This document shows positions 50,259 to 64,000 of a stretch of 64,000 nucleotides of DNA, in pieces; position 1 is the stretch's first letter, and every line of letters starts with the position of its first letter. The DNA is from Gemmatimonadaceae bacterium (lineage in GTDB: Bacteria > Gemmatimonadota > Gemmatimonadetes > Gemmatimonadales > Gemmatimonadaceae), in assembly GCA_035606695.1 (NCBI GenBank), contig DATNEW010000031.1, forward strand, positions 186,001 to 250,000, read 5' to 3'. The notes under the pieces are model-generated. The model had not been told where the DNA came from and ran no database searches. It saw only the letters and a program-made list of their open reading frames with translations. The position numbers and the translations under genes were made by a program.

Positions 50259-52709
50259 ATGATGAGTTTGCAGCACCGCGTTGCGGTCTCGAGTGTGTTG
50301 GCGCTGCTTGCCGCCGGTGTGTCGTGCGGTGGGGGCGGCGCGTGTCCGGTCAGCAATCCGAATTGCGAGTCGCAGACGCAGAACCCGAGCGTGACCGGCG
50401 TCACGATCTCCGGTGCGCCAAGTACGGCGATCGCGGTCGGGCAAACGGCGCAGGTAACCGCATCCGTGACCGTGACGGGCGGCGCGGCGCAAACGGTAGC
50501 GTGGACGTCGGACAACCCGGCCGTGGCGACGGTGAGCGCGGCCAATCCAACAACTGTAACAGCGATCGCGCCGGGCACGACGAACATCACCGCGCGCTCG
50601 ACGGTGGACGGAACGAAGTTCGCCACCGCACCGATCACTGTCGCGGGCGTCAGCACCGTGGCGCTCAACGTGACCGCGCCGCAAACGATTCAGATCGGAC
50701 AGACGACGACACTCACCGCGAACGTCGCGACGTTCGGCGGAGTGGCGAGCACCGTCACGTGGAAGTCGTCGAACACCAACGTCGCGACGGTGACGCCGAG
50801 CGGCAACACGGCGTCGGTGAAAGGGCTGGCCTCGGGAACCGCCACGGTGACGGCAACGTCTTCGGTGGATGGCCAGAAGTCGGCGGCACTCGTGTTCACA
50901 GTCGTCGCGGCGCAGCCCGTCGCGAACTGGACGCCCGGGAAAGTGGCGATCGTCGGCGGCCCGATGACCGGCGCCGTCACCGGCATGTGGGGCAGCGGCA
51001 CGTCGAGCGTCTTCGCGGTAACGGACAACGGTGAGATCGCCCACTACGACGGCACGCGGTGGCAGTCGAGTCTCAGCGGAAAGAATCCGTTCAACGGCGT
51101 ATTTGGAAACAGTGCATCCGACGTGTTCGCCGTGGGGAACGGGAGCCTCTTCCATTTCGACGGAACGAATTGGACGTCGCAAACGATTCCCGTCAGCTCG
51201 AAGCTCTTCGCCGTCTGGAGCGCAAGTAGCTCGACGGCATTCGCGGTCGGGCAGAGCGGCACGATCATCCGGCTCACCGGCGGCACGTGGAGCACGATGA
51301 CGTCTCCGACCGCGCAGGATCTGCATGGCGTATTTGGTTTCGGCGCCTCGGACGTGTACGCCGTCGGAAGCGGCGGCGTGATTCTGCACTTCGACGGTAC
51401 GACGTGGACGTCGATGAGCTCCGGTACCTCGCAAACGCTACGCGGCGTCTGGGGCACGAGCACCGCGAACGTCTTCGCCGTCGGCGAAGGCGGCACGATT
51501 CTACACTTCAACGGCAGCGTGTGGGGGGCCATGTCGAGCGGTACGACTGGCGTCCTCACGGCGGTCAGCGGCGCCGGCACGAGCGACGTCTATGCAACGC
51601 TCGCGAACGGATCGTTGCTCACGTTCAACGGCACGTCGTGGGGGCCGTCGGGCATCGCGCTGACCTTCGCGGGCACGCTCAACTATCGCGACTCGGTCCT
51701 CGCTGTCTGGGACGCAGGCGCGAGCGTCGCGTTCCTCGGAGGCTCCGAAGGCATGACGGGCATTTACCGTCCGCCCGGCAACTCGCTCGCCGGCATGACG
51801 CTGCTGTCGCTCAATCCCACGCTCGAGAGCGTGCAGCAATTCGGCAACGTCGACGTCGTCGTGGGCACGTACGGCACCATTCAACAATTCGACGGCACAT
51901 CGTGGACGGCGGTGAACTCACCGACGTCCGGTACGCTGCTTGGATTGTCTCCGCCGTTCGCGGTCGGCGCCGGGGGCACGATCCTTCGCTTCAGCGGGAA
52001 CGCGTGGACCGGCATGACGAGTCCCGTCACCGCCGACCTCAATTCGGTGTGGGCGAACAGCAGCACCGACGCGTTCGCGGTCGGCGGCGGCGGAACGATT
52101 CTCCACTTCGACGGCGCCACGTGGACCAAGATGACGTCGAACACCACGGCGCTCCTCCTCGGCGTGTGGTCCAGACCCGACGGCAAATCGGTGTACGCCG
52201 TCGGACGAAGCACCATCATGCACTTCGACGGCACGACGTGGTCGGCCATGTCGCTGCCCGTGTCCACGGATATCTCGGCCGTGTGGGCGTTCGCCGATGC
52301 GTCCAATCCGACGATATCATCGAACGTGTACGCGGTGGGCTTCGACGGATCGATCCTCGTCAACACGCCGCCGAGCAACGTGTGGACGAAGATGTCGGCG
52401 CCGGTGTCGACGCCGCTGTTCTCGATCTGGGGCAACAGCGCGGCCGACATTTACGCCGGTGGCTTCAACGGCACCATCCTCCACTTCGACGGCTCGACCT
52501 GGGGCGCGATGACCAGCAACACGACGATCTCGATCTCGGGCATCGGCGGGTCGTTCTCGACGGGGATCTTCGCCGTCGGCCAGGCGGGAACCGCGGTGCG
52601 CGGGACGCCGCCGGCGAGCGTGGTGAGTCAAAAAAACAGTGTCGTCCTGAGGAAGCGAAGCGACCGAATCGGGATGACTCCTCCAGCGCCTAGGTCAATT
52701 GCCCCATAG
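50259..52709 (+). CDS. Lipoprotein with two BIG2 Ig-like domains and ~14 propeller repeats
   Basis: 816 residues. A signal peptide ends in AAGVSC, a lipobox with Cys23 or so. Two bacterial Ig-like (BIG2) domains follow: VTGVTISGAPSTAIAVGQTAQV... and LNVTAPQTIQIGQTTTLTANV..., each ending in the TAxxxGTxxITA pattern. From about residue 225, a ~40-residue unit repeats some 14 times: VYAVGxGGTILHFDGTTWxxM, with one degenerate copy; this suits two seven-bladed propellers. Likely a surface-exposed binding protein. The last ~20 residues are encoded by a fragment of a dispersed repeat, so the original end was probably near GTAVRGTPPAS. Confidence 0.82.
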   Translation: MMSLQHRVAVSSVLALLAAGVSCGGGGACPVSNPNCESQTQNPSVTGVTISGAPSTAIAVGQTAQVTASVTVTGGAAQTVAWTSDNPAVATVSAANPTTVTAIAPGTTNITARSTVDGTKFATAPITVAGVSTVALNVTAPQTIQIGQTTTLTANVATFGGVASTVTWKSSNTNVATVTPSGNTASVKGLASGTATVTATSSVDGQKSAALVFTVVAAQPVANWTPGKVAIVGGPMTGAVTGMWGSGTSSVFAVTDNGEIAHYDGTRWQSSLSGKNPFNGVFGNSASDVFAVGNGSLFHFDGTNWTSQTIPVSSKLFAVWSASSSTAFAVGQSGTIIRLTGGTWSTMTSPTAQDLHGVFGFGASDVYAVGSGGVILHFDGTTWTSMSSGTSQTLRGVWGTSTANVFAVGEGGTILHFNGSVWGAMSSGTTGVLTAVSGAGTSDVYATLANGSLLTFNGTSWGPSGIALTFAGTLNYRDSVLAVWDAGASVAFLGGSEGMTGIYRPPGNSLAGMTLLSLNPTLESVQQFGNVDVVVGTYGTIQQFDGTSWTAVNSPTSGTLLGLSPPFAVGAGGTILRFSGNAWTGMTSPVTADLNSVWANSSTDAFAVGGGGTILHFDGATWTKMTSNTTALLLGVWSRPDGKSVYAVGRSTIMHFDGTTWSAMSLPVSTDISAVWAFADASNPTISSNVYAVGFDGSILVNTPPSNVWTKMSAPVSTPLFSIWGNSAADIYAGGFNGTILHFDGSTWGAMTSNTTISISGIGGSFSTGIFAVGQAGTAVRGTPPASVVSQKNSVVLRKRSDRIGMTPPAPRSIAP
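52641..52678. repeat. Partial dispersed repeat inside the 3' end of the propeller gene
   Basis: The sequence GTCGTCCTGAGGAAGCGAAGC, then CGGGATGAC at the right end, keeps both terminal motifs of the dispersed palindromic family, but in a short form. It supplies codons for the last residues of the propeller lipoprotein. Its resemblance to the other copies is weaker than theirs to each other. Confidence 0.5.
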
Positions 52710-52788
52710 GTAGTTCGCGCCGCACGTCTTAGCGTAGCGAATGAGAATCCTTGCATGACAACGCGCGCGGCGTTGCCGGCCGGCGGTC

Positions 52789-52808
52789 TCACATAGGTTC
52801 ACATAGGT
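52789..52808 (+). promoter_or_regulatory. 10-bp tandem direct repeat upstream of the cytochrome cluster
   Basis: TCACATAGGT occurs twice in direct succession with no spacer, about 95 bp upstream of the pentaheme cytochrome start. Two half-sites one helical turn apart are typical of OmpR-like or other dimeric activators. The position suits an upstream activator site of the operon. Confidence 0.4.
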
Positions 52809-52833
52809 CATCGGCCATCTTGCGAGTGGTTTT

Positions 52834-52864
52834 CCGCAATGGCACACTTGCGCGCCATTCGCGG
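52834..52864. promoter_or_regulatory. Inverted repeat in the leader of the cytochrome cluster
   Basis: CCGCAATGGC and GCCATTCGCGG pair (AATGGC/GCCATT perfect, then CCGC/GCGG with one bulged C) around a 10-base loop. It ends 36 bp before the ATG of the first cytochrome gene, where it could be an operator or a leader hairpin in the mRNA. Confidence 0.4.
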
Positions 52865-52900
52865 AAGCACGTCGGCGCACCTCAATTCGAGACTGACTTG

Positions 52901-54721
52901 ATGCACATTTGGCGACGGAGTCGAATTGCGCGCCAGTGGGTTCGATCGATCATCGCACCCATCGCCTGTACGGCGCTGGTGTCCGCGTGGATCGGCGCGT
53001 CCAGCCGGACGTCGTCGGCGAAGACCGTCCGACATGTCCGACGAGTCCAGCAGGACCGGCAGGTCCAGCAAGGCGGCGACCCGCACGCGGCCGTCTTCGC
53101 CGAGTCGGAGTATCCGTCCGCGTCGCAGTGCGCGTCGTGCCATCAACAGATCTACCAGGAGTGGGCGAGCAGCAATCACGCGTACGCGTCGACCTCGCCC
53201 GTCTTTCACAAATTCGAACAGCGCATCAACGATCTGTCACACGGCACGATCGGATACTTCTGCATGCGCTGCCACGCCGCGGTCGGCACCACGCTCAACG
53301 AGCGCCGCGATCTGCCGCTCACCGAGCGGTCGCAGGTGTCGCGCGAAGGCGTGACGTGCGTGACGTGCCACCGTGTGTCGGAGCGGTTTGGCCGCGTCAA
53401 CGGCGAACGGCGCATGGAGCCGGGCAACATCAACGCGCCGGTCTATGGTCCCACGGGCGGTTCAGGACTGGCGCCCGTGTTGGCCGACAAGGGTCACTAC
53501 GCCGTCAAGACGAGTGCGAGCGAGACAGGCCCGGGTCAGAACATTCACTCGGCCGCGATCAAATTCGACCAGCTCGACAAGAGCTCATTCTGCGTGTCGT
53601 GTCACCAGGTGGCCGTCCAACCGGGCATCAAGCTCGAGGTGGTGTGGGATCAGTACCGCGCGTCACCGGCAGCGAAGCAGGGCGTCACGTGTCAGGATTG
53701 CCACATGGGCAAGACGCCGGGCGTGGCCGACGGCTATGCGACAGGACCTGCCGCGATCGTCAATGGCATTCCGATCAATCCCACGCGCAGGCACACGAAC
53801 CATTCGTTCTTTGGCCCAGGATATCCGACCGCGCATCCCGGACTCTTTCCGCACAATCCAAACGCGCAGCGCTGGACGGCCGATCAGTGGCTCAAGTTCG
53901 ACTATCGCGCCGGCTGGGGCACGGATGCGTTCGAGAACAAGGTGACACCGCAGACCAGGTTCCCTAAGGACTGGGCGGAAGCGGACGATCGCTATGACGC
54001 GCGCAAGATCATCGATGCCAACCTTGCCTCGCTCGAGAAGAAGCGCGAGCTGCGTCGCGAAGTGATGGAGCATGGATCGCACATCGACGGGCCGTTCTTC
54101 AGCAGTGATCTGCGCGCCGGACAGTCGCTGCATTTCCGGTATCGCGTCTCGAACATCAATCCGGGACACAACCTGCCGTCAGGATCGCTTGGCGCGCAGC
54201 CGGAGCTGTGGCTCAACGTCGCGTTGATCGATCCCGACGGAAAGCGCGTGTGGGAGTCGGGCTATCTCGACAGCAACGGCGACATGGCCGACGAGCACTC
54301 GCTCGACGTGCGGGCCGGTAAGGTTCCGTACGACAAGCAGCTCTTCAACCTGCAGACGAAGTTCCTGACGACGGACGTCAAGGGCACCGACCGCGAGATG
54401 TATCTCCCGATCAATCTCGACATCGATCAACTTCCGTTCATACGTCCGGGCGGGCAGCCGATCACCGTGATGAACCACCCGCCGTTCATCCGCATGGAAG
54501 CACGCTCGTTGCCGCCGCTCAGCTCGCGCGACGCCGAGTACACGGTGCCGGCCGATGCGATGCGGAAGCCCGGCACGTACAAGCTCGCCGTGCGCATGCG
54601 CAGCCGTGCGGAGCCGATCTACTTCATGAAGTTCATCGGATCGACCAAGGAGATGGAGCGCACGATGAACGAATGGATGGTCGATCTGCATCCGTACACC
54701 GTCACGTTCACGGTTCGCTAA
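52901..54721 (+). CDS. Pentaheme c-type cytochrome
   Basis: 606 residues from the ATG at 52901, which begins a basic then hydrophobic export signal (RQWVRSIIAPIACTALVSAWIGASS). Five CxxCH heme sites lie at Cys77, Cys121, Cys153, Cys231 and Cys264, the third and fifth in GVTC(V/Q)(T/D)CH. Further His residues (HTNHSFF, NPGHNLPSG) can be distal ligands. From about residue 350 there is no heme; a beta-type domain follows (LHFRYRVSNINPGHNLPSGS, PELWLNVALIDPDGKRVWESGY) of the kind seen attached to periplasmic multiheme proteins. Its stop overlaps the start of the barrel gene by one base (TAATG). Confidence 0.9.
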   Translation: MHIWRRSRIARQWVRSIIAPIACTALVSAWIGASSRTSSAKTVRHVRRVQQDRQVQQGGDPHAAVFAESEYPSASQCASCHQQIYQEWASSNHAYASTSPVFHKFEQRINDLSHGTIGYFCMRCHAAVGTTLNERRDLPLTERSQVSREGVTCVTCHRVSERFGRVNGERRMEPGNINAPVYGPTGGSGLAPVLADKGHYAVKTSASETGPGQNIHSAAIKFDQLDKSSFCVSCHQVAVQPGIKLEVVWDQYRASPAAKQGVTCQDCHMGKTPGVADGYATGPAAIVNGIPINPTRRHTNHSFFGPGYPTAHPGLFPHNPNAQRWTADQWLKFDYRAGWGTDAFENKVTPQTRFPKDWAEADDRYDARKIIDANLASLEKKRELRREVMEHGSHIDGPFFSSDLRAGQSLHFRYRVSNINPGHNLPSGSLGAQPELWLNVALIDPDGKRVWESGYLDSNGDMADEHSLDVRAGKVPYDKQLFNLQTKFLTTDVKGTDREMYLPINLDIDQLPFIRPGGQPITVMNHPPFIRMEARSLPPLSSRDAEYTVPADAMRKPGTYKLAVRMRSRAEPIYFMKFIGSTKEMERTMNEWMVDLHPYTVTFTVR

Positions 54722-56250
54722 TGACGCGCCGACTCTCGTCGTGGCCGATCGCCGCGCTGGTGGTGATGCTGTTGAGCGCCGGCCTGCCGTGCGCCGCGGC
54801 GGCGCAGCAGAGCACATCGAGCGCGCGTCCCGACAGCGCGCACATGGATCCGCGCGCGCAGCCCGCGACGCACGATCGCTCGGTCTTCGCGGCCGATCCG
54901 AACTACGGCAATCCCGCCTACGACTATCAGGCGCAGCTCGACATCTATGGCGCGAAGCATCTCAACTCGACGCAGCGTCCGCTGCTCGAGCTGGGACGCG
55001 AGCTCTATCAGAGCGGTCCGTTCTCGCCCGCGCCGACGTTCCTGGGCTCGCACAACATCGTCATTCCGCAACTGCTCGTGTACGGCGACTTCCGTTCGGC
55101 GGCGGGAGGTTCCGACGCGGGCACGCAGATCAGCCGGTGGGGAAACCGGCTGAACCTCGACGTCGATCTCAAGATCACGGCGACCGAACGCTTTCACGCG
55201 TTGTTTCGTCCGTTCGAGGACAAAGGTCAGTTCACGGGCGCGACGTTCAGCGGCGACTCGACGGGCTTCAAGGGCCACTACAACGGCGATCCCGCGGCGC
55301 TGTTCTTCGAGGGCGACTTGGGCGCGATCGTCGGCGGTCTGACCGGCCATGACTCACCGTTCGACCTGCCGATCTCCGCCGGCCGCATGCCGCTGTTGTT
55401 TCACAACGGCATCTGGCTGCAGGACGCGTTCAGCGGCGCGGCGTTCGCGATTCCAGCGCGCAACTCCGGCTCGCTCGACTGGTCGAACTTCGACGGGAGC
55501 TTCTTTTACGGCGGCCGCGACGTCTCGAACTCGTTCGTCGGCAATGGGAAGGATCACGGGCAGATCTTCGGGACGAACACGTTCATCGACGCCTATCACG
55601 GCTATGTGGAGGCGGGCTACGCGTACATCGCCGGCGGCGACGTGACGCAGCCGGACTTTCATTCGGTGGCGCTGTCGTTCACGCGGCGTTGGGGCGGCAT
55701 CGTGTCGAATTCGGTACGGTACATCGGCGCGTTCAGCCAAGGTGTACCGACGGGCATCGTCACGCCGGCGGGGACGGCTGTGAATCCGACACCGAACGGC
55801 CATCTCTTTCTGATGGAGAATTCGTTCATCACGTCGCACGAGGCGACCGTCGTGCCGTATCTCAACTTGTTCTTCGGCATCGACAATCCGGTGTCGGCGG
55901 CGCGCGACCCTGGTGCGGGCGGCATTCTCACGAACACGGGCATCAATTTCGAGACGGACGCGATCACGGCGTTCCCCGCGCTCGACGCCACGGGACGCAA
56001 CTCGACCGGCGGCGCGCTCGGCCTCGAGCTCCTGGGCTCACAGCTCGATCGTCAAGTGGTATTTGAAGTCGCGACGGCGTATCCACATCAGACGAGCGCC
56101 GAGATGCCCGGCGGGCAGTACGCGTTCGGCATTCGCGCGCAGAAGGTGTTGAATCGCGCGATGATCTTTCGCGTCGATGGTATTGCCGGTAAGCGAACGG
56201 GCCTGCCCGACGTGCGCGGGATTCGCGCCGAGCTCCGCACGAAGTTCTGA
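54721..56250 (+). CDS. Outer-membrane beta-barrel protein of the cytochrome cluster
   Basis: 509 residues with a signal peptide (MTRRLSSWPIAALVVMLLSAGLPCAAAAQQ). The mature protein is rich in amphipathic strands and ends in VRGIRAELRTKF, a C-terminal Phe as for Bam-dependent barrels. Regular Gly/aromatic strand pairs (FHSVALSFTRRWGGIVSNSVRYIGAF, EATVVPYLNLFFGID, LDRQVVFEVATAYPH, YAFGIRAQKVLNRAMIFRVDGIAG) suggest about 16 strands. It starts on the last base of the pentaheme stop, so the two are coupled. A porin-like conduit or scaffold for the cytochromes is my inference; the N-terminal CxxC of MtrB proteins is absent. Confidence 0.75.
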   Translation: MTRRLSSWPIAALVVMLLSAGLPCAAAAQQSTSSARPDSAHMDPRAQPATHDRSVFAADPNYGNPAYDYQAQLDIYGAKHLNSTQRPLLELGRELYQSGPFSPAPTFLGSHNIVIPQLLVYGDFRSAAGGSDAGTQISRWGNRLNLDVDLKITATERFHALFRPFEDKGQFTGATFSGDSTGFKGHYNGDPAALFFEGDLGAIVGGLTGHDSPFDLPISAGRMPLLFHNGIWLQDAFSGAAFAIPARNSGSLDWSNFDGSFFYGGRDVSNSFVGNGKDHGQIFGTNTFIDAYHGYVEAGYAYIAGGDVTQPDFHSVALSFTRRWGGIVSNSVRYIGAFSQGVPTGIVTPAGTAVNPTPNGHLFLMENSFITSHEATVVPYLNLFFGIDNPVSAARDPGAGGILTNTGINFETDAITAFPALDATGRNSTGGALGLELLGSQLDRQVVFEVATAYPHQTSAEMPGGQYAFGIRAQKVLNRAMIFRVDGIAGKRTGLPDVRGIRAELRTKF

Positions 56251-56275: not shown

Positions 56276-58450
56276 GTGAGGGTTGGCCGGCTCGCCGGAT
56301 GGGCTGCTACCTGCGCCGCCTCGGGGTTGGTCATCGCCGCGGTCTCGCTGTTTGGTCAGCAGCCCGGCCCGAGCTACAAGAGCTCGCCGTTCCTGCGCAT
56401 CGATCCGGACAAGGTCGTGATCACCGACGCGTCGGGGCAGAAACCCTGCGCCGACTGTCACCGCAATGAATGGCAGGTGTGGAAGGATACGCGTCATGCG
56501 CAGATGTACGACTCACTCACTCGAATGGCGTCGGCCAAGCAGTACATGCAGGCATTGGGGCTGCGCACCACCAAGCGGCAGGACGCGATCTGCATGCGTT
56601 GCCACTACACGGTGGGACCGGATCGCACGGCGATCGCCGGCGTGTCGTGCGAATCGTGTCATGGCGCGGCGCGCGACTGGATCAACGTTCACAACAAGTT
56701 CGCGCCCGGCGTGCGTGACCGGACGCAGGAAAGCCCGGTGCAGCACGAGCAGCGCGTCGCGGCGAGCCGCGCCGGCGGGATGCTGCGCCCGTCCACGGAC
56801 ATTTATGCCGTAGCGGCGAACTGTTTCGAGTGCCACACTGTTCCGATGGAGATCGTCGTCAACAAGGCCGGCCACTCGTCGGGCACGCGGTCGTTCGATC
56901 TCGTGTCGATGATCGACTCCATTCGTCACAATTTTCTAAATCCCGGCGGGCCGGTGGTGAATCGCCCGAACACGCCGGAGCAGAAGCGCGTGCTGTTCGT
57001 GATCGGCCGCATGCTGGCGTACGAGTACGCGCTGCGCGGCATGTCGACGGCGACGGTGGACAGCACCTATTCCGATGCGATGAACGTCCGCGCGAAGCGC
57101 GCGTTCACCGATTTGCAAACGATGAACGCGGCGCAGCACCTGCCGGCCGTTGACAGCGTGATGATGATCGCGCGAAAGGTGAAGCTGGTGCCGAACAATC
57201 GCGCGGAGCTGGAGCATGCGGCGGATCAGATTCGCGAGATCGGGCAGCGATTCGCGTCGGGCACGAATGGATCGACGTTGGCGGCGCTCGACCCGGTGAT
57301 CTCGGGGCATCCTGTCGCGGCGCCAGTGGAACAGGCGCCCGTTGCGGCGACGCCGCCTGCGGCGAGTGCTCCCGCAACGGGTGCCGGCGTCCCGGCGACG
57401 GCGCGTGGATCGAAAGGCGCGACGCCGCAACGCACAACCGCTGCGTCGACGGCGCCGGCATCGGCTCCCGCGCCGGCGGCCGCGCCGCCCGCGCACGTCG
57501 AGCTTCCCGGTCGCATTCGCAATCGTCCTGAGTGGTTCAACGCCAGCGGCCGCAGCGGATATTTGGGCGTCGACGCCTGCGCGCGCTGCCACGGCAAGGC
57601 GATGGGCTGGTGGAATCGCGACCCGCACAGCGAGAGCGCGTCGAAGCATTTGCTCGGTGAGGATCCGAAGGCGCGCCGCATCGCCGACACATATGGTATA
57701 GGCGCCGCCGGCATGGCTCGCCCCGACAACATGTGCATGAGCTGCCATGCGACGGTCGACGAAGGCCGGAAAGTGCAGATCGAGACCGGTGTGAGTTGCG
57801 AGAGTTGTCACGGGGCCGCGAGCGGGTGGAAAGATTCGCACCAGAAGGGCAACAACCCGCAGCCCGGCATGAGGAACCTGAAACAGGCGGCCGATCGGGC
57901 GCAGACGTGTTCAGGCTGCCATCGCATCACGGACGAGCGCCTGATCGCGGCGGGGCATACGACCGGCGCGAATTATGACTTTGCTAAAGCCAACGAGAAG
58001 ATCAAGCATTGGCCCGATGCGAAGGCCGATCAATTCCGTGCCGAGCATGGTGGCGCGGCGTATCAGGATGTGCCGGCGGCGGCGCTGACGGCGGCGTTTG
58101 CGGCGGCGGTGCAAAGCCGGCCAATTCCGAAAGTGGCGGTTGCTGCGGCGCCGACTCCGCCCCCCGTGCCGGCATCTATCTCGGCGCGTTCGCCGGCCGA
58201 AGTTTCGCCGTCCGCCGCCGACACCCCGTCGCCCACCGCCGACGCCCATACGCCCATACGCCCATACGCCCATACGCCCAAACAGGCCCCCACCCTCCCC
58301 TCGCGCATTCCCCCCAGCACCCGCAGCACGCCGGTCACACTCGATCTGCCGCCGCTGCCGCCGACGGCTCACATGACCACCGAAGATCTGCTGCTTCTCG
58401 TGAAGAAACGCATCGAACGAATTCAGGCCGCGATCGCGGGCCGCAACTGA
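56276..58450 (+). CDS. Octaheme c-type cytochrome built from two tetraheme modules
   Basis: 724 residues, GTG start with GAGGA five bases upstream; the start region is an 11-bp tandem repeat (GAGCCAGTGAG twice). A hydrophobic N-terminus (WAATCAASGLVIAAVSLFG) exports it. Hemes: Cys58, 106, 125 and 183, then a Pro/Ala-rich linker (about 345-410), then Cys435, 487, 508 and 545. Both modules have the same order, including GVSCESCHGAA and a fourth heme followed by GH, and resemble the tetraheme cytochrome c554 type. The C-terminal ~115 residues are Pro/Ala-rich and end in a charged helix (MTTEDLLLLVKKRIERIQAAIAG). An 8-bp repeat in the coding region lies at 58243-58282. Confidence 0.92.
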   Translation: MRVGRLAGWAATCAASGLVIAAVSLFGQQPGPSYKSSPFLRIDPDKVVITDASGQKPCADCHRNEWQVWKDTRHAQMYDSLTRMASAKQYMQALGLRTTKRQDAICMRCHYTVGPDRTAIAGVSCESCHGAARDWINVHNKFAPGVRDRTQESPVQHEQRVAASRAGGMLRPSTDIYAVAANCFECHTVPMEIVVNKAGHSSGTRSFDLVSMIDSIRHNFLNPGGPVVNRPNTPEQKRVLFVIGRMLAYEYALRGMSTATVDSTYSDAMNVRAKRAFTDLQTMNAAQHLPAVDSVMMIARKVKLVPNNRAELEHAADQIREIGQRFASGTNGSTLAALDPVISGHPVAAPVEQAPVAATPPAASAPATGAGVPATARGSKGATPQRTTAASTAPASAPAPAAAPPAHVELPGRIRNRPEWFNASGRSGYLGVDACARCHGKAMGWWNRDPHSESASKHLLGEDPKARRIADTYGIGAAGMARPDNMCMSCHATVDEGRKVQIETGVSCESCHGAASGWKDSHQKGNNPQPGMRNLKQAADRAQTCSGCHRITDERLIAAGHTTGANYDFAKANEKIKHWPDAKADQFRAEHGGAAYQDVPAAALTAAFAAAVQSRPIPKVAVAAAPTPPPVPASISARSPAEVSPSAADTPSPTADAHTPIRPYAHTPKQAPTLPSRIPPSTRSTPVTLDLPPLPPTAHMTTEDLLLLVKKRIERIQAAIAGRN
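58243..58282 (+). repeat. 8-bp tandem repeat inside the octaheme cytochrome gene
   Basis: ACGCCCAT occurs four times without spacer from 58243 to 58274, followed by a fifth copy with one change (ACGCCCAA). As eight is not a multiple of three, gain or loss of one unit would shift the frame of the last ~55 residues. All eight heme sites lie upstream and would stay intact. Confidence 0.85.
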
Positions 58451-58462
58451 TGGCGATGATGT

Positions 58463-60001
58463 ATGTCTGAAACGATCGTGATGATGGCGCGCCAATTCGA
58501 CGACCGCTGGTCGTCGCTCACCGCGCGCCCTGGACTCGCCGAGCTCTCGAGCTTGCGGCGCCCCGACCAGCTGCGGCAAATCGATCTGCTGCGCGAGTTC
58601 GACGACGATTTTCTGCGCGATATCAGTCCCGATCTCGCGATCGCGACCTGGGAGCCGCAAGCGACGCTGTTCAAAGCGGGGACGTATCTCGACGTTGCGT
58701 TCTATGTGTTGGACGGCACCGTCGATCTCGAGCTCCAGGTAGGTGACGCGCACCGCCCGATCTTCGCCACGCGCAGCGTCCCGCTTGCGACGGAAGATTT
58801 CAATCTCGCCCCCGGCGAGTCGCTGCGGATTGGTGCGGGCGACGTGTTCGGCGAGATCGGTGCGATGAACGGTTGGCCACAAGCCGTCACGGCACACACC
58901 GCAACCCGTTGTACGCTGCTTCAGATTCGCCTGCCCGCGTTGCGAAAACTCAAGCGCAAGTCGAAGGCGCTCAAACAGCGCATGGATCAGGTCTATCGCG
59001 AGCGGACGCTGCGACAGCATCTGCGCAGTACACCGGTCCTCCAAGGTCTTGCGCCCGAGCTGATCGACGCGCTCGCCGCGCACGTCGAGCTGGTATCGTG
59101 CCAGCCAGGCGACGTCGTCGCGCGCGAGGGATCGCCGGTCGAGCACCTCATTCTCGTGCGATCGGGCTCGCTGCGCATGTCGCAGGCGATTGGCACCGGC
59201 GAGATCGCGGTCTCCTACGTGAGTAAGGGCTCGACCGTCGGCGAGTCCGAGCTGCTCGTCGACGAGATGGCGACGTGGGAAGTGACGGCGACGTCGGTCG
59301 GCTACTCCGAGCTCGTGCGCATTCCGCGCGAAGACTTCCTGCGCGTGCTCAAGCGCGCGCCGGAGCTGGAGAAGCGCCTGTGGGCGATCGCCGGCGAGCG
59401 CATCAAGGAAATAGCGTCGCGGCGCGCGCACCTGGACCGCGCCGACCTGCTCGACTTCAGTCTCGCGAAAGGGCTCACACAAGCGAACAGCGTGCTCGTG
59501 ATCGATCTCGAGACGTGCACGCGGTGCGACGACTGCGTGCGCGGCTGCGCGAGTACGCACGGCGGCACGCCGCGCTTCGTGCGCGAAGGCGAGGTCCATG
59601 AGGGTTTTCTCATTGCGCGGTCGTGCTATCACTGCCAGGACCCAACGTGCCTCGTGGGCTGCCCGACGGGCGCGATCAGCCGCACCAACATCGGCGACAC
59701 AGTGGCGATCGACCCAGCGGTCTGTATCGGCTGCGGCTCGTGCGCCGAGAATTGCCAGTACGACTCGATCGTCATTCACGACCTTGGTGTCACGTGGGGA
59801 CCGGATGCGATGCCGCGCCATTTGCGCGGACAGCCGCGCAGCGTCGCGAGCAAATGCGATCTCTGTCGCGAGGCGCCGGAAGGTCCCGCGTGTGTATCGA
59901 GCTGTCCGCACGGCGCCGCGATTCGCGTCGCCGGCGCCGAAGAGTTCGACGTGCTGATTCAGACCAAGCGCCGCCGGCAGTTGCCGCTGGTGCCGGCGTG
60001 A
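58463..60001 (+). CDS. Double cNMP-binding-like domains fused to a four-cluster (16Fe) ferredoxin
   Basis: 512 residues, cytosolic (no signal). Two CAP/CRP-like sensor domains lie at about 42-165 (FKAGTYLDVAFYVLDGTVDLEL, GDVFGEIGAMNGWP) and 188-305 (LVSCQPGDVVAREGSPVEHLILVRSGSLRM, GSTVGESELL). Neither keeps the Arg-Ser/Thr pair that holds the cyclic phosphate (WPQAVTA and ATWEVTA instead). Residues 350-490 match the DmsB/HybA-type ferredoxin, with CTRCDDCVRGC, CYHCQDPTCLVGCP, CIGCGSCAENCQ and CDLC-x8-CVSSCP, i.e. four [4Fe-4S] sites. No DNA-binding domain is present. Its stop overlaps the cytochrome b start by GTGA. It is likely the cytosolic regulated electron relay of the complex. Confidence 0.9.
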   Translation: MSETIVMMARQFDDRWSSLTARPGLAELSSLRRPDQLRQIDLLREFDDDFLRDISPDLAIATWEPQATLFKAGTYLDVAFYVLDGTVDLELQVGDAHRPIFATRSVPLATEDFNLAPGESLRIGAGDVFGEIGAMNGWPQAVTAHTATRCTLLQIRLPALRKLKRKSKALKQRMDQVYRERTLRQHLRSTPVLQGLAPELIDALAAHVELVSCQPGDVVAREGSPVEHLILVRSGSLRMSQAIGTGEIAVSYVSKGSTVGESELLVDEMATWEVTATSVGYSELVRIPREDFLRVLKRAPELEKRLWAIAGERIKEIASRRAHLDRADLLDFSLAKGLTQANSVLVIDLETCTRCDDCVRGCASTHGGTPRFVREGEVHEGFLIARSCYHCQDPTCLVGCPTGAISRTNIGDTVAIDPAVCIGCGSCAENCQYDSIVIHDLGVTWGPDAMPRHLRGQPRSVASKCDLCREAPEGPACVSSCPHGAAIRVAGAEEFDVLIQTKRRRQLPLVPA

Positions 60002-60702
60002 CGACACCGCTGCCCGTCCTCGTCTTCGGCATTGGCGCCGCGATCTCCATGGCGGCGGTGATGGCGTATTCGGCGCGACGGTCGCGGCCACAGGTGCGCA
60101 AGCTCGGTCCCGCACGAACGTACTACCGCGTCCATGTCTGGGGCGGGCTGCTGTTCCTCGCGCTGCTCATCCTCCACATGAGCTTTCACCTGCCGCGCTC
60201 GGGATTTGGATTCATCCTCTGGGCCGCGAGCATCTGGGTGGTCGTCACCGGCACGCTCGGCTGGTTTCTCCAATGGCTCGTGCCCAAGGTGTTGACGCCC
60301 GCCTCGTCGTTCGAGGTCAACTACGAGCGCATTCCCGAATTCGTCAACGAGCTTCGCGGGCGGGCCGAAGAGGTCGTGGCGCGCGCGGAACCGCGCATCC
60401 AGAGCTATTACAGCCAACAGATGGCGAGCGAGCTCGCCGCGCCGCGCATGTCCGCGGCATCCCTGTTCGCGGGCGCGCGCGGCCGCTCGACCGGCGGCGT
60501 CGATCTGTTGCGGCGCACGCTATCGCCGGGAGATGCGGCTGTCCTCGATTCGTTGTGTCAAATCCAAAACTCCAAACGCGAGGTCGACGCGCACTACACG
60601 CTGCAGCGCGTGTTGCGCGGTTGGCTGACGATTCATTTGCCCGTTGCGATCGCGCTCGTCGGACTCGTCGTGCTGCACATCTTCTTCGTCGTGTACTTCT
60701 GA
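59998..60702 (+). CDS. Four-helix di-heme cytochrome b-type membrane subunit
   Basis: 234 residues, GTG start overlapping the upstream stop (GTGA). Four TM helices: about 5-25, 45-66, 72-95 and 208-232. His46/His60 in TM2 and His213/His227 in TM4 are each 14 residues apart, the spacing for two b hemes stacked across the membrane; His64 is a further candidate. A ~105-residue soluble segment between TM3 and TM4 (SSFEVNYERIPEFVNELRGRAEE...) is unusual. No signature of NarI or Nrf/Hyb subunits is recognised. It should take electrons from the Fe-S protein, or return them, and pass them to the periplasmic hemes. Confidence 0.78.
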   Translation: MTTPLPVLVFGIGAAISMAAVMAYSARRSRPQVRKLGPARTYYRVHVWGGLLFLALLILHMSFHLPRSGFGFILWAASIWVVVTGTLGWFLQWLVPKVLTPASSFEVNYERIPEFVNELRGRAEEVVARAEPRIQSYYSQQMASELAAPRMSAASLFAGARGRSTGGVDLLRRTLSPGDAAVLDSLCQIQNSKREVDAHYTLQRVLRGWLTIHLPVAIALVGLVVLHIFFVVYF

Positions 60703-60714
60703 TCGGATCGCACC

Positions 60715-62265
60715 GTGGCTGAGATTCCCCCAAACAACCGGCGGTTCGACAAGGGCTTTTTCACGCGCGAGCGATTCGCCGTCGCGGCGAAGTACCTCGC
60801 GATGCCGAATCGCGCGCGCTTGTTCAAGTACGGGGGTATCGCCGCGCTCGCGCTTGCGCTCGTCTTTCTCGCCGACGCCTTCATCGGCCGCGCGTCGTTC
60901 ATCGCCGGCCCGCTCTCGGCGAGGCACGCGTTGTTCGCGAAGAACTGCTCGTCGTGCCACACGGCGGCGCACGGCGCGCCGAACGCCAACTGCCAGAGCT
61001 GCCATCAGAAGTCAGCCGGCGAACGCCAGGTCTACGGATTCGCCAAGCACTATCAATATCGCTCGGCCGACGTCGATCGCTCGTCGCCGCACAGTCAGGA
61101 GATGACGTGCGGTACGTGTCATCGCGAGCATCAGGGCCGTCAGAACACTCTGCAGAACGTGGCCGACAACAAATGCGTCGGCTGTCACGACATGCGCTCG
61201 TTCCACAGCGGGCATCCGGAGTTCGAGTTCGCGCGGAAGAAGATTCCGAATCCGTCGAACCTCACGTTTCAGCACATACTGCACGTGCGCGAGGTGATGA
61301 AGGAGCAGAAGCTGTCGAACGCCGAGAACGCGTGTCTCTCGTGTCACACGCCGAAACCGGACGGCCGTACGTTCCAGCCGCTGTCGTACGCCAAGGCGTG
61401 CGACCGATGTCATTTGGGCGAGACCGAGTCGACGCCGTACATGCCGTTGAAGAGCGGCGGTCGGCCCGGCGTCGCGACGCTTGCCGAGATTCGCAAGAGT
61501 GCGTCGCCGGGCACGCAGTGGGCCGAGTATTGGAACGCCGACGAGTTCAGCGAGCAGGGTGGGGCGGTGAAGAAGCGGATCGTCTATCACGCCGACCCGT
61601 GGGTGCTCTACAACCTCCAGCAAATTCGGCATCAGCTGTATCCTGGCGCCGAGCTCGCGGATCTCATCAACACCACGGCGGAGCTTCCGCCCGAGCAGGC
61701 ACGCACGCTCTACGAAGAAGCGACGGGCACGCTACAGAAGCAGATCGAATCGCTGCGCGGCAACCAGTCGCCTGATGTGCAGAACGAGGTGTCGTCGCTG
61801 ACGCAGGTTCTCAAGCTGATTCAACAGCGCATCGACGAGCCGTATGCCCCGCTCGACGAAACGAAGTTCGCGGTGACGAACGGCGATCGATCGGGTGCCG
61901 ATGAACGCGCGTATGCGCCGGTGATCGATTCGCTCACCAAACCGTGCCAGCTCTGTCACACGGTACAGAAGGCGACGATTCGCCGTGTGAAGACGGATTT
62001 GCGGACGATGGTGCGCGCGGAGTTCGATCACCGCGCGCACGTGCTGCACGCCAAGTGTCTCGACTGCCACAATGTGATACCGTTCCGGCAGTACCTTGGC
62101 ACCGACGACAAGCCGGCGCCGAGCCAGGACAATGCGCAAATTGTGAATTTGCCGACGATCGAAAAGTGCCAATCCTGTCATACGAGCAAGGCGGCGCCGG
62201 CAACGTGCACAACCTGTCACCTCTTTCATCCGGACCGAGAGCATTGGGCGAGCCTGACGCGGTAG
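60715..62265 (+). CDS. Membrane-anchored decaheme c-type cytochrome
   Basis: 516 residues with a GTG start 12 bp after the cytochrome b gene. A ~38-residue cytosolic start and one uncleaved TM (GIAALALALVFLADAFI, 41-57) anchor it. Ten CxxCH sites occur at Cys78, 93, 132, 154, 207 and 229, then after a helical, heme-free segment of ~180 residues at Cys411, 448, 485 and 498. Close pairs such as CSSCH-x10-CQSCH and CQSCH-x8-CTTCH resemble cytochrome c3/c7-type packing. Free His (FKHYQ-like KHYQ, FQHILH, FDHRAH) can be distal ligands. It is likely the periplasmic acceptor of electrons from the cytochrome b. It overlaps the FHA gene by 22 bp. Confidence 0.92.
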   Translation: MAEIPPNNRRFDKGFFTRERFAVAAKYLAMPNRARLFKYGGIAALALALVFLADAFIGRASFIAGPLSARHALFAKNCSSCHTAAHGAPNANCQSCHQKSAGERQVYGFAKHYQYRSADVDRSSPHSQEMTCGTCHREHQGRQNTLQNVADNKCVGCHDMRSFHSGHPEFEFARKKIPNPSNLTFQHILHVREVMKEQKLSNAENACLSCHTPKPDGRTFQPLSYAKACDRCHLGETESTPYMPLKSGGRPGVATLAEIRKSASPGTQWAEYWNADEFSEQGGAVKKRIVYHADPWVLYNLQQIRHQLYPGAELADLINTTAELPPEQARTLYEEATGTLQKQIESLRGNQSPDVQNEVSSLTQVLKLIQQRIDEPYAPLDETKFAVTNGDRSGADERAYAPVIDSLTKPCQLCHTVQKATIRRVKTDLRTMVRAEFDHRAHVLHAKCLDCHNVIPFRQYLGTDDKPAPSQDNAQIVNLPTIEKCQSCHTSKAAPATCTTCHLFHPDREHWASLTR

Positions 62266-63263
62266 ACGACGCGCGAGCGCTGCTCGTGTGCAAGAGCGGC
62301 GACCTGGCCGGCACGAGATTCGAGATCGGGCGTGACGCGCTCATCGGTCGCGACGAGCGCGGGCGCGTGCAGGTCGTGAGTGGATCGCAGCGGGTGGCGG
62401 AATCGTTCGCGCGGATTTCCCATCGCGACGGACGGTACACGCTCGAGAGCACCACGGCCGGCGCCGTTCGTGTCGACGGCAATCCGGCGCATGGCGCTGT
62501 CGTGCTCGATCGGCGGCATCTGATAGCGCTGCCCGATGGAACGGAGCTCGTGTACAGCGTCACGCCGCCCGCGGCGCGGCCACAAGCACCCGCCAGCTCA
62601 CCCGCGAGCGCACCCGCGAGCTCGCCCCCGCCGTCGCAGCGTCGCGAACCGACGGTCGAAGCCCCGCTCGAGACGATGGTCGAATCCGCGTGGGGGGGCG
62701 TGCCCGAGCTCAAGCGCCGGCCCAACACGCCCGCCGCACAAGCGCCAGGTCAGCAACCTCCCGAGCGCATCATCACGGCGCCGCGCTCGAAGCAGGTGTC
62801 GGACGATCCGCCGGGCGGCACCATGGTCGACGCGAACCTGGGCGCGCTGCCGCCGCTCGTCCGCAAACCGGCGCCGCGCCCGCCGGCGAACGAACCGCCG
62901 GCAACGCACAGCACCGGCGACGACGACATCGGAACGCGCGTGTTCGAGCCGCCCAAGCCCGCGGTCGCCTACGAGGTCGTCGTCAAGGTGCCCGATCAGG
63001 AAACTCTAACGTACCCGCTCAAACACGGCGAGAACATCATTGGCCGCAGCAGCGAGTGCGACATCCAGCTCGCGGACCCGAACAAGTGGCTCTCGCGCAA
63101 GCACGCGATGGTTCGCGTGTCCAACGATCTCGTCGAGCTGATGGATCTCAACGGCATGAACGGAACGTACCTGAACGGTGCGCGCATCACCAACGCGGTC
63201 CTTGTTCCGGGCACCTCGTTCTACCTCGGCCCCAACGTGGAGCTCACGCTCCGTCAACGATGA
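62244..63263 (+). CDS. Double-FHA-domain protein
   Basis: 339 residues. The start is probably the TTG at 62244, since the first FHA domain begins soon after (ALLVCKSGDLAGTRFEIGRDALIGRDE) and no ATG is near; this overlaps the decaheme gene by 22 bp. The N-terminal FHA is less typical (SFARISHRDGRYTLES). A ~140-residue Pro/Ala-rich linker with TMVESAWGGVPELKRRP and TMVDANLGALPPLVRKP, two related motifs, follows. The C-terminal FHA is canonical: ENIIGRSSECDIQL, LSRKHAMVRV, ELMDLNGMNGTYLNGARI. FHA domains bind phosphothreonine, and the repeated TMV motifs may be kinase sites. It is coupled to the flavoprotein gene by ATGA. Confidence 0.88.
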   Translation: MGEPDAVDDARALLVCKSGDLAGTRFEIGRDALIGRDERGRVQVVSGSQRVAESFARISHRDGRYTLESTTAGAVRVDGNPAHGAVVLDRRHLIALPDGTELVYSVTPPAARPQAPASSPASAPASSPPPSQRREPTVEAPLETMVESAWGGVPELKRRPNTPAAQAPGQQPPERIITAPRSKQVSDDPPGGTMVDANLGALPPLVRKPAPRPPANEPPATHSTGDDDIGTRVFEPPKPAVAYEVVVKVPDQETLTYPLKHGENIIGRSSECDIQLADPNKWLSRKHAMVRVSNDLVELMDLNGMNGTYLNGARITNAVLVPGTSFYLGPNVELTLRQR

Positions 63264-64000
63264 GCTCTGCCTCTTCCACCAGCGCGCCCGAGTCGACGGC
63301 GCATCGCATGTCGCTCGCGCAGACCGACGTGCTCGACATGCTCATCGTCGGCGGCGGACCCGCCGGCACCTCGGCCGCGTTTCGCGCGCGCGAGCTGGGT
63401 CTGCGCGCGCTGCTGATCGACTTCGACGACATCCTCAAGCGCATTCGCGATTATCCCAAGGACAAGTTGATCCTTCCGGATTTCGGCGGCGGCGATCGCA
63501 TGGCGTTCCCCGCCGGCGACAAATGCGTCAGCGCGCTGCAATTCGAGCCGATCGACAAGGACGACATGTGCGCGCGCTGGAAAGGATTGTACGACGAATT
63601 CCAGATTCCCGCGCGCACGGGCCTCGAGCTCCAGAGCGCCGAGCGGGAAGATGACGCGTGGAAGATCACCACGTGGGATCACAAGGCGGGCGCGGCGCAG
63701 GTGTATCGCGCGCGACACGTCGTGCTGGCAATCGGACGCGGCGTACCGCGCCGGCTCGATCTGTCGGGGAACACCGAGGGCATTCGCTATCGCCTCGACG
63801 ATCCCGCCAACTACTGCGGAAGCCCGGTCCTCGTCGTCGGCGGCGGCACCTCGGCCGCCGAGGCGGTGCTGGGTATTTCGGCCGCGAAGATCGCGGCCGG
63901 TGATTCGTGCGGCGTGTACTGGTCGTTTCGGGGCACGCGCATGCCGCGCGTCTCGAAGGCGCTGGCCGAGCAGTTCTTCGAGGCGTACATCGGCAACGGC
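63260..64000 (+). CDS. FAD/NAD(P)-dependent oxidoreductase, N-terminal 247 residues (3' end outside window)
   Basis: The ATG overlaps the FHA stop (ATGA). The frame is open to the window end. The FAD site is MLIVGGGPAGTSAAFRARELG with the acidic end of beta-2 in LLIDFDD; the second dinucleotide site is PVLVVGGGTSAAEAVLG, and HVVLAIGRGVPRRLDLSG is the linking ATG-like motif. It belongs to the thioredoxin-reductase/YpdA-like two-dinucleotide-fold group. No CxxC redox pair is visible in the part present. It is the natural NAD(P)H entry or exit point for the Fe-S/cytochrome chain. Only the window edge truncates it. Confidence 0.88.
   Translation, partial: MSSASSTSAPESTAHRMSLAQTDVLDMLIVGGGPAGTSAAFRARELGLRALLIDFDDILKRIRDYPKDKLILPDFGGGDRMAFPAGDKCVSALQFEPIDKDDMCARWKGLYDEFQIPARTGLELQSAEREDDAWKITTWDHKAGAAQVYRARHVVLAIGRGVPRRLDLSGNTEGIRYRLDDPANYCGSPVLVVGGGTSAAEAVLGISAAKIAAGDSCGVYWSFRGTRMPRVSKALAEQFFEAYIGNG

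Follow-up and report, generated by a model that had tools for sequence, protein, structure and literature searches.

The locus described here raises the question of what two cyclic-nucleotide-binding (CNB) domains are doing on a four-cluster ferredoxin, and whether they might control the electrons that pass through it. The gene concerned (D) lies near the end of the 64,000-nucleotide stretch of DNA that was analysed as a whole (the window), and the original prediction, drawn from the letters alone, had placed two CNB domains ahead of a DmsB-like ferredoxin in the frame at 58463 to 60001. This architecture was confirmed, as Pfam returned two cNMP_binding domains plus Fer4 and the protein has 16 cluster cysteines. 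Less well founded was the accompanying remark that CNB folds normally sit on DNA-binding or kinase modules, since many other modules are listed as well in Kannan 2007 (PMC2246266). The genes of the set and the parts of D are as follows.

52751 to 54721, plus strand: gene A, five-haem (CXXCH) cytochrome; start probably ATG 52901, judged by eye
54673 to 56250, plus strand: gene B, probable outer-membrane beta barrel, inferred; N-terminal signal and terminal Phe seen by eye
56276 to 58450, plus strand: gene C, eight-haem (CXXCH) cytochrome by motif; N-terminal signal seen by eye
58463 to 60001, plus strand: gene D, CNB-CNB-four-cluster ferredoxin of 512 aa, from the open reading frame, Pfam, alignment, and predicted model
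58634 to 58933, plus strand: CNB1 of D, about residues 58–157, cassette 130–143; Gln140 for the phosphate-binding Arg and Leu76 for the β2–β3 Gly
59075 to 59362, plus strand: CNB2 of D, about residues 205–300, cassette 260–276; Glu263, and Trp272 in the Arg column
59489 to 59962, plus strand: ferredoxin part of D, about residues 343–500; 16 Cys and four [4Fe-4S] sites by motif, with Pfam and alignment
59998 to 60702, plus strand: gene E, putative dihaem cytochrome b, a membrane protein; GTG start overlaps the stop of D (GTGA)
60715 to 62265, plus strand: gene F, ten-haem (CXXCH) cytochrome by motif, with one N-terminal membrane anchor
62244 to 63263, plus strand: gene G, FHA-domain protein; start uncertain, TTG 62244 or GTG 62286
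63260 to 64000, plus strand: gene H, FAD/NAD(P)H oxidoreductase-FHA-FHA-[2Fe-2S]; ATG 63260 overlaps the stop of G (ATGA), and the gene continues past the window to L016:2590

Protein D and the genes around it

The frame of D runs from ATG 58463 to TGA 60001 with no internal stops, and as no signal peptide was seen in its product, the protein appears to be cytoplasmic. PF00027 matched D in two stretches with 88.9 bits (cut-off 27.5; E 2e-25 for the protein; best at residues 211–298), and two such stretches were likewise found in the 513-codon frame by a whole-genome scan. The CNB fold assigned beforehand was also matched by a model of D made with AlphaFold2 on a 22-row alignment, in which pLDDT is mostly 80–90 for the CNB domains and about 50–72 for the ferredoxin. 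Here, a fold search paired CNB2 with 5bv6 (Z 19.6, rmsd 2.4 over 145 residues), and matched the tandem CNB part with 1cx4, 5j3u, 6rsx, and 3of1 at large rmsd values, with the ferredoxin part barely covered. In a model of the D-E fusion described below, the ferredoxin mostly has a pLDDT below 50.

The 16 ferredoxin cysteines fall into four groups (residues 352–362, 388–400, 421–431, and 465–481) and are all invariant in the 22-row alignment; several Fer4 models match residues 382–437. Closest among solved structures are HycB3 and HycB4 of the hydrogen-dependent CO2 reductase, formate hydrogenlyase subunit 2, and an NrfC protein. The 16-Cys arrangement is thus shared with the HycB/DmsB/HmcB/DsrO ferredoxins, with HycB3 as the best solved relative, but D differs from these in its two CNB domains and in its partners, as the operon genes scanned between 52751 and the end of H included no molybdenum enzyme, hydrogenase, or formate enzyme. 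An identity of D as a reductase subunit of the DmsB type was consequently rejected, the molybdopterin partner being absent among these genes. HmcB and DsrO are moreover exported, in contrast to the apparently cytoplasmic D.

Concerning the neighbours, gene B could be aligned across 8 loci and has a barrel-like end, and profile and PDB searches gave no family match and no PDB match for it, solved barrels included. In gene E, His46/His60 and His213/His227 lie in membrane helices and are invariant in 11/11 homologues; the search for a named family returned no Pfam match (with E of L017), no NCBIfam match (with E of the window), and chance-level PDB matches only. Gene F scores to HmcA and to the solved multihaem cytochromes 3ov0 and 3oue.

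The first relatives of D, found in a scan of genome contigs, were four proteins at 47–52% identity, of which three carried the label candidate division KSB1. D is present in 3/298 sampled genomes of the window's phylum, in 4/121 genomes of one family of that phylum (two being genomes already in the 298 sample), and in 16/82 sampled genomes of a second phylum, that of L009. Our working set accordingly comprised 23 proteins, namely those of the window, L017, L052, and L053 from the window's phylum, 18 from the 16 second-phylum genomes (two of which carry two copies each), and the outlier L018. Setting aside L018, which is distant (31% identity), the in-family set is made up of 22 proteins from 20 genomes and two phyla, with pairwise identities of 42–99% (median 54%) that exceed 90% in only 1/231 pairs. 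In trees of both D and H, the window groups with members of its own phylum.

The window (together with L016) and L052 carry complete copies of all eight genes A–H in one shared order, and so do L062, L064, and L061 of the second phylum, although in L061 two additional genes separate E from F. The order recurs in L053, where A is cut at the contig edge and the cytochrome b was identified by position only, that of the other A–H loci having been identified by alignment. In L017, genes A–F run in order to near the contig end, which falls close to G, and H is located on a separate contig. The remaining second-phylum loci differ from the A–H set in the outer half, and in several of them D is preceded by an HbpS-like protein, a ~1,226-residue 10-haem cytochrome with LVIVD repeats, and a 3-haem protein (families read from L055 only). 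Five genomes (L065–L069) have D fused to E in a single polypeptide, the cytochrome b helices coming after the ferredoxin; the L065 sequence breaks off within E. All these parts are of known kinds, whereas their combination is new to us: a literature search, with most subscription papers outside its coverage, turned up no publication linking CNB domains to either four-cluster ferredoxins or multihaem cytochromes.

The cassettes of CNB1 and CNB2

Both phosphate-binding cassettes had been described as keeping the Gly-Glu and lacking the Arg-Ser/Thr pair. The first two parts of this description, Gly-Glu kept and Arg lost, stood up, though the loss of the Ser is not family-wide in CNB1, where a Ser follows the Arg position in 21/23 homologues and the Ala of the window is one of 2 exceptions. 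The CNB1 cassette of the window, FGEIGAMNGWPQAVTA, aligns without gaps with that of a solved M. loti channel CNB domain (GEPRSATV), and places Gln140 at the Arg position after an intact Gly-Glu. Gln140 occurs in all 22 in-family proteins, and so do Gly130, Glu131, Gly133, Ala134, Gly137, Trp138, Pro139, and Thr143. Moreover, among 326 windows of 14 residues from residues 1–340, outside the ferredoxin, residues 130–143 rank first in conservation, and the cassette mean of 0.90 exceeds that of the rest of CNB1 (0.67; one-sided Mann-Whitney p 0.0002).

The CNB2 cassette of the window, VGESELLVDEMATWEVTA, likewise has the Gly-Glu, but its loop is two residues longer and Trp272 stands in the Arg column, as placed by alignments with a two-residue gap and by the strand positions of the model. 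Trp272 is found in 21/22 in-family proteins, and Glu263, which occupies the position of Ala202 in PKA RIα, in 21/22 (22/23 with L018). The first cassette Glu is retained in 17/23 and is Asp in 5/23 and Leu in 1/23. Apart from Gly260, Glu263, and Trp272, this cassette is poorly conserved, ranking 273 of 323 and not differing significantly from the rest of CNB2 (p 0.16). For comparison, we took 35 control CNB domains (6 from the window's own genome and 29 from relatives, 20 genomes in all), which are mostly best-scoring ones and so lean towards the canonical; here, the Arg column holds Arg in 26, and the residue-263 column holds Glu in 0/35.

The losses extend to the β2–β3 loop, whose glycine is co-conserved with the cassette Arg in CNB domains, according to Kannan 2007 (PMC2246266). 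In that column, CNB1 has Leu, Ile, or Val in 22/23 proteins, with L018 as the exception, and CNB2 has Ala, Val, or Ser in 23/23. Hence, the Gly went together with the Arg from both domains of the in-family proteins, none of which (0/22) shows an intact Arg-Ser/Thr cassette in the alignment; only L018 keeps the Arg-Ser, in CNB1, along with the β2–β3 Gly.

From the conservation pattern of the two cassettes, a working pocket seems to have persisted in CNB1 but not in CNB2. As judged from the alignments, CNB1 has the look of a functional site whose ligand has changed, and CNB2 that of one that is plugged or structural. The earlier proposal, that the domains sense another ligand or have become structural, thus fits well, with the amendment that the two domains diverge, the first having the best conserved cassette and the second an eroded one. 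Gating of electron flow by a ligand of CNB1 is plausible and consistent with the gene set. The chief rival, which we rate as a serious though somewhat doubtful possibility, is that both CNB domains are purely structural, binding no small ligand and instead positioning the ferredoxin against the cytochrome b or H, or dimerising it. Arg is after all missing from both cassettes, and in CNB2 it has given way to Trp272 within an eroded cassette. Moreover, the nearest NCBIfam profile is that of the family 2B encapsulins, whose CNB-like domain is reported not to bind cyclic nucleotides, with its function not known and an unknown ligand suggested (PMC12407261). A structural contact, as opposed to a ligand, could also be the reason why the CNB1 cassette is conserved. 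Against this, a mere scaffold need not keep its pocket residues best, and no stretch of D outside the ferredoxin is more conserved than the CNB1 cassette. The conserved Gly-Glu...Gly-Trp-Pro-Gln-Ser offers a defined target for ligand screening.

The encapsulin shell profile in question (NF041163) gives the best NCBIfam match both to D as a whole and to its CNB domains taken singly, and it matches 18/18 of the CNB2 set and 11/18 of the CNB1 set. An encapsulin identity for D was nonetheless ruled out, as the match is confined to profile positions 67–198 of 450 (71.6 bits against a cut-off of 400) and the HK97 shell domain is absent. What D shares with these proteins is the CNB-like insertion domain, including a Trp at the aligned place in the solved chain 9bje, an entry named in the encapsulin paper (9BJE; PMC12407261); what it lacks is the HK97 shell part.

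Proposed electron path and its control

A path for the electrons of D is suggested by the operon itself, which the original prediction had left unmentioned, with its multihaem cytochromes, cytochrome b, FHA proteins, and NAD(P)H oxidoreductase. The D-E fusion argues for a hand-over of electrons between the ferredoxin and the cytochrome b, in either direction, and the loops of E that are rich in arginine, inspected by eye under the positive-inside rule, would, together with the lack of a visible signal peptide in D, put the ferredoxin in the cytoplasm. H, the one NAD(P)H enzyme in the cluster, is the likely donor. With its inner-membrane cytochrome b, multihaem cytochromes, and candidate outer-membrane barrel, the set resembles porin-cytochrome conduits and Hmc-type complexes. 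In these, the input is a quinol oxidase or a hydrogenase, whereas in the A–H set it is the CNB-ferredoxin and the FHA-bearing NAD(P)H oxidoreductase.

The reading we prefer, in which our confidence is about evenly divided, takes D as the cytoplasmic entry carrier of a trans-envelope conduit, with ligand gating by CNB1, a structural CNB2, and phosphorylation control through FHA domains. From the gene set we infer that electrons would pass from NAD(P)H to the FAD and [2Fe-2S] of H, then by way of the four [4Fe-4S] clusters in D to E, the dihaem cytochrome b, and onward through the membrane-anchored ten-haem F and through C to the A/B pair at the outer membrane. Here, B may be the pore, and an external acceptor would be the most likely destination. 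CNB1 would have retained its ligand site but, with Gln for Arg behind an intact Gly-Glu, would no longer take cyclic nucleotides; its ligand might be one without a charged cyclic phosphate, such as a nucleoside or other metabolite. Binding would then move the helical connections among CNB1, CNB2, and the ferredoxin, which would alter the docking of D to E or H, with CNB2 serving as a plugged, mainly structural partner, and the FHA domains of H and G would add control by phosphorylation. If this is true, a respiratory wire would be switched directly by ligand and phosphorylation and not only via gene expression, which would represent a new control point for extracellular electron transfer. It would also bring new chemistry to the CNB fold, some arginine-free versions of which (family 2B encapsulins) are without a known ligand.

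Gene H, which crosses the window edge, encodes a FAD/NAD(P)H oxidoreductase part, two FHA domains, and a [2Fe-2S] domain. Its glycine motifs for FAD and NAD(P) are conserved in 12/12 homologues, as are, in the second FHA domain, the phosphopeptide motifs GR, LSR-x-H or LSRHH, and NG. At the third [2Fe-2S] ligand position there is an Asp (C-x4-C-x2-D) in 10/12 rows, the two others being cut or without it; such an Asp also occurs in some succinate dehydrogenase subunits. The nearest relatives of the H FHA domains are GarA and OdhI, which are phospho-switches, but in H two FHA domains are set inside an oxidoreductase, between its FAD/NAD(P)H and [2Fe-2S] parts.

The distribution of H follows that of D. 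In the second phylum, H is present in 12/82 genomes, all 12 among the 16/82 with D (Fisher p 2e-11, kinship uncorrected), and in the window's phylum it is found in 2/298 genomes, both among the 3/298 with D (Fisher p 7e-5, kinship uncorrected). The remaining 4/16 D-bearing genomes of the second phylum have no H match (one of these genomes is small) and all four carry the D-E fusion, which suggests that H is not always the donor. Moreover, the operon of L018 contains a NADH-FAD-[2Fe-2S] reductase unrelated to H, and H was not found in the genome of L018; another reductase in place of H is what would be expected if the input module is exchangeable.

A somewhat unlikely alternative accepts the conduit as real but has it run inward, from an outside source (for example Fe(II)) or a periplasmic donor to NAD(P)+ or a cytoplasmic acceptor, or has it serve a periplasmic enzyme, or takes A or C as a terminal reductase. 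The direction cannot be read from the sequence, and there is some support for this alternative in the matches of A and C to the cytochrome c554 family and in those of the A profile to PDB entry 5ze8, named cytochrome c552, and, at chance-like scores, to nitrite reductase entries. On the other hand, an outer-membrane conduit would account better than a soluble reductase for a barrel-like B placed between A and C, and outward flow from NAD(P)H is downhill for most acceptors.

Returning to the outward, gated path, a broader version of it strikes us as unlikely. In this, a conduit family common to two phyla would be controlled post-translationally at its cytoplasmic entry, with CNB1 turned to a new non-cyclic ligand and the FHA domains reading phosphothreonine, so that electron export would be switched by a metabolite and a kinase with no transcription step. 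The candidate ligand for CNB1 would then be a nucleoside or other uncharged ribose compound that reports the energy state.

Kinase genes were observed within ~6 kb of D in 9/16 second-phylum genomes (L054–L057, L066, L067, L069, L011, and L012), a neighbourhood that is only suggestive. A further kinase gene follows H in L058 (same genome as L057), and PP2C genes lie near H in two loci, L058 and L064. Among the four in-family loci from the phylum of the window, where gene tables and open reading frames were read by eye, no kinase was noticed.

Nucleosides, cyclic nucleotides, and related systems

A further alternative, which we consider improbable, makes CNB2 and not CNB1 the sensor, with nucleosides bound through an extra Glu (GExE) as in trypanosomatid PKA. 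In the report on that kinase, the Arg is replaced, a Glu stands at the Ala202 position, and inosine, guanosine, and adenosine are bound with nanomolar affinity (PMC10959531). Here, the CNB2 of the window and of most homologues has the Gly-Glu-x-Glu with the Arg lost, and the Glu at this position is as regular in D as it is foreign to the control domains. Nevertheless, the pocket would be crowded with Trp272 at the Arg position; the first Glu of the cassette is at times Asp or Leu, and the remainder of the cassette is not conserved. Beyond the lost Arg and the Glu of CNB2, D and the trypanosomatid regulatory subunit share the tandem CNB fold (6hyq against the D model: Z 17.6, rmsd 14.2 over 251 residues). 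They differ in that CNB1 of D is without that Glu, the column of the second Glu of the ribose cassette holding Gly, and in the Trp of CNB2 and the output, a ferredoxin as against a kinase.

Least probable of all is that D is an ordinary cAMP or cGMP sensor tolerant of substitutions, for although 9/10 D-bearing genomes tested have class III cyclase domains (the genome of L018 among the 10) and the outlier L018 has a canonical-looking CNB1 cassette, the Arg is gone from CNB1 in 22/22 proteins and supplanted by Trp in CNB2 in 21/22, the co-conserved Gly is gone from both domains, and most control domains do keep the Arg. We thus set aside ordinary cAMP sensing as unlikely. With cyclase domains in nearly all the genomes tested, the Arg would not have been lost for want of cyclase genes, and the simplest history appears to be a cyclic-nucleotide-type ancestor whose function was lost within the D family.

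A precedent for tandem CNB domains tied to a redox enzyme is the 'Bact_Pyrredox' group of Kannan 2007, where a pyridine nucleotide-disulphide oxidoreductase is found on the same chain and the listed cassette, GEMGLISGRRRGATVRA, has the Arg (PMC2246266). In D, by contrast, the CNB domains are on a four-cluster ferredoxin and are without the Arg.

The FHA-containing oxidoreductase and neighbouring phosphorylation genes

Taken alone, the domain architecture of H, the last protein of the gene set, is unusual, with its FHA domains placed internally and, at the third cluster ligand position of its [2Fe-2S] part, an Asp rather than a Cys.

63260-64000, continued at L016:260-2590 (past the window's end): H, two FHA domains between the FAD/NAD(P)H part and the [2Fe-2S] part
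L058:16962-19901: PP2C phosphatase and PEGA-domain Ser/Thr kinase, directly 3' of H

Here, the phosphatase and PEGA-domain kinase of L058, a second-phylum locus, are a possible partner pair for the FHA domains of H. Separately, L054-L057, L011, and L012 each have, within a few kb of D (the CNB-CNB-ferredoxin protein), a Ser/Thr kinase joined in one chain to a domain that resembles formylglycine-generating enzyme.

Variant forms of the cluster

In five second-phylum genomes (L065-L069), D and the cytochrome b that follows it, E, form a single polypeptide of ~820 aa, the L065 copy being truncated at the contig end. In the distant outlier L018, H is replaced by a different NADH-FAD-[2Fe-2S] reductase, and the cassette of the first CNB domain looks canonical.

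L018:2934-13094: distant cluster version, first CNB cassette GEMAALGRTDRSATV

Outer half of the proposed conduit and upstream genes

We also observed another outer half of the proposed conduit in L054-L058, L060, and L065-L069, consisting of a 10-haem cytochrome (~1,226-1,284 aa; in L055 it has LVIVD repeats) and a 3-haem cytochrome, both often preceded by an HbpS-like protein. The upstream protein at 50259-52709 has Ig-like segments, judged by eye to be BIG2-like, as well as repeat segments.

50259-52709: secreted-looking protein, just upstream of the cytochrome cluster
L052:2-1273 (genome G345, the window's phylum): adenylate cyclase-like fragment, just upstream of the cluster
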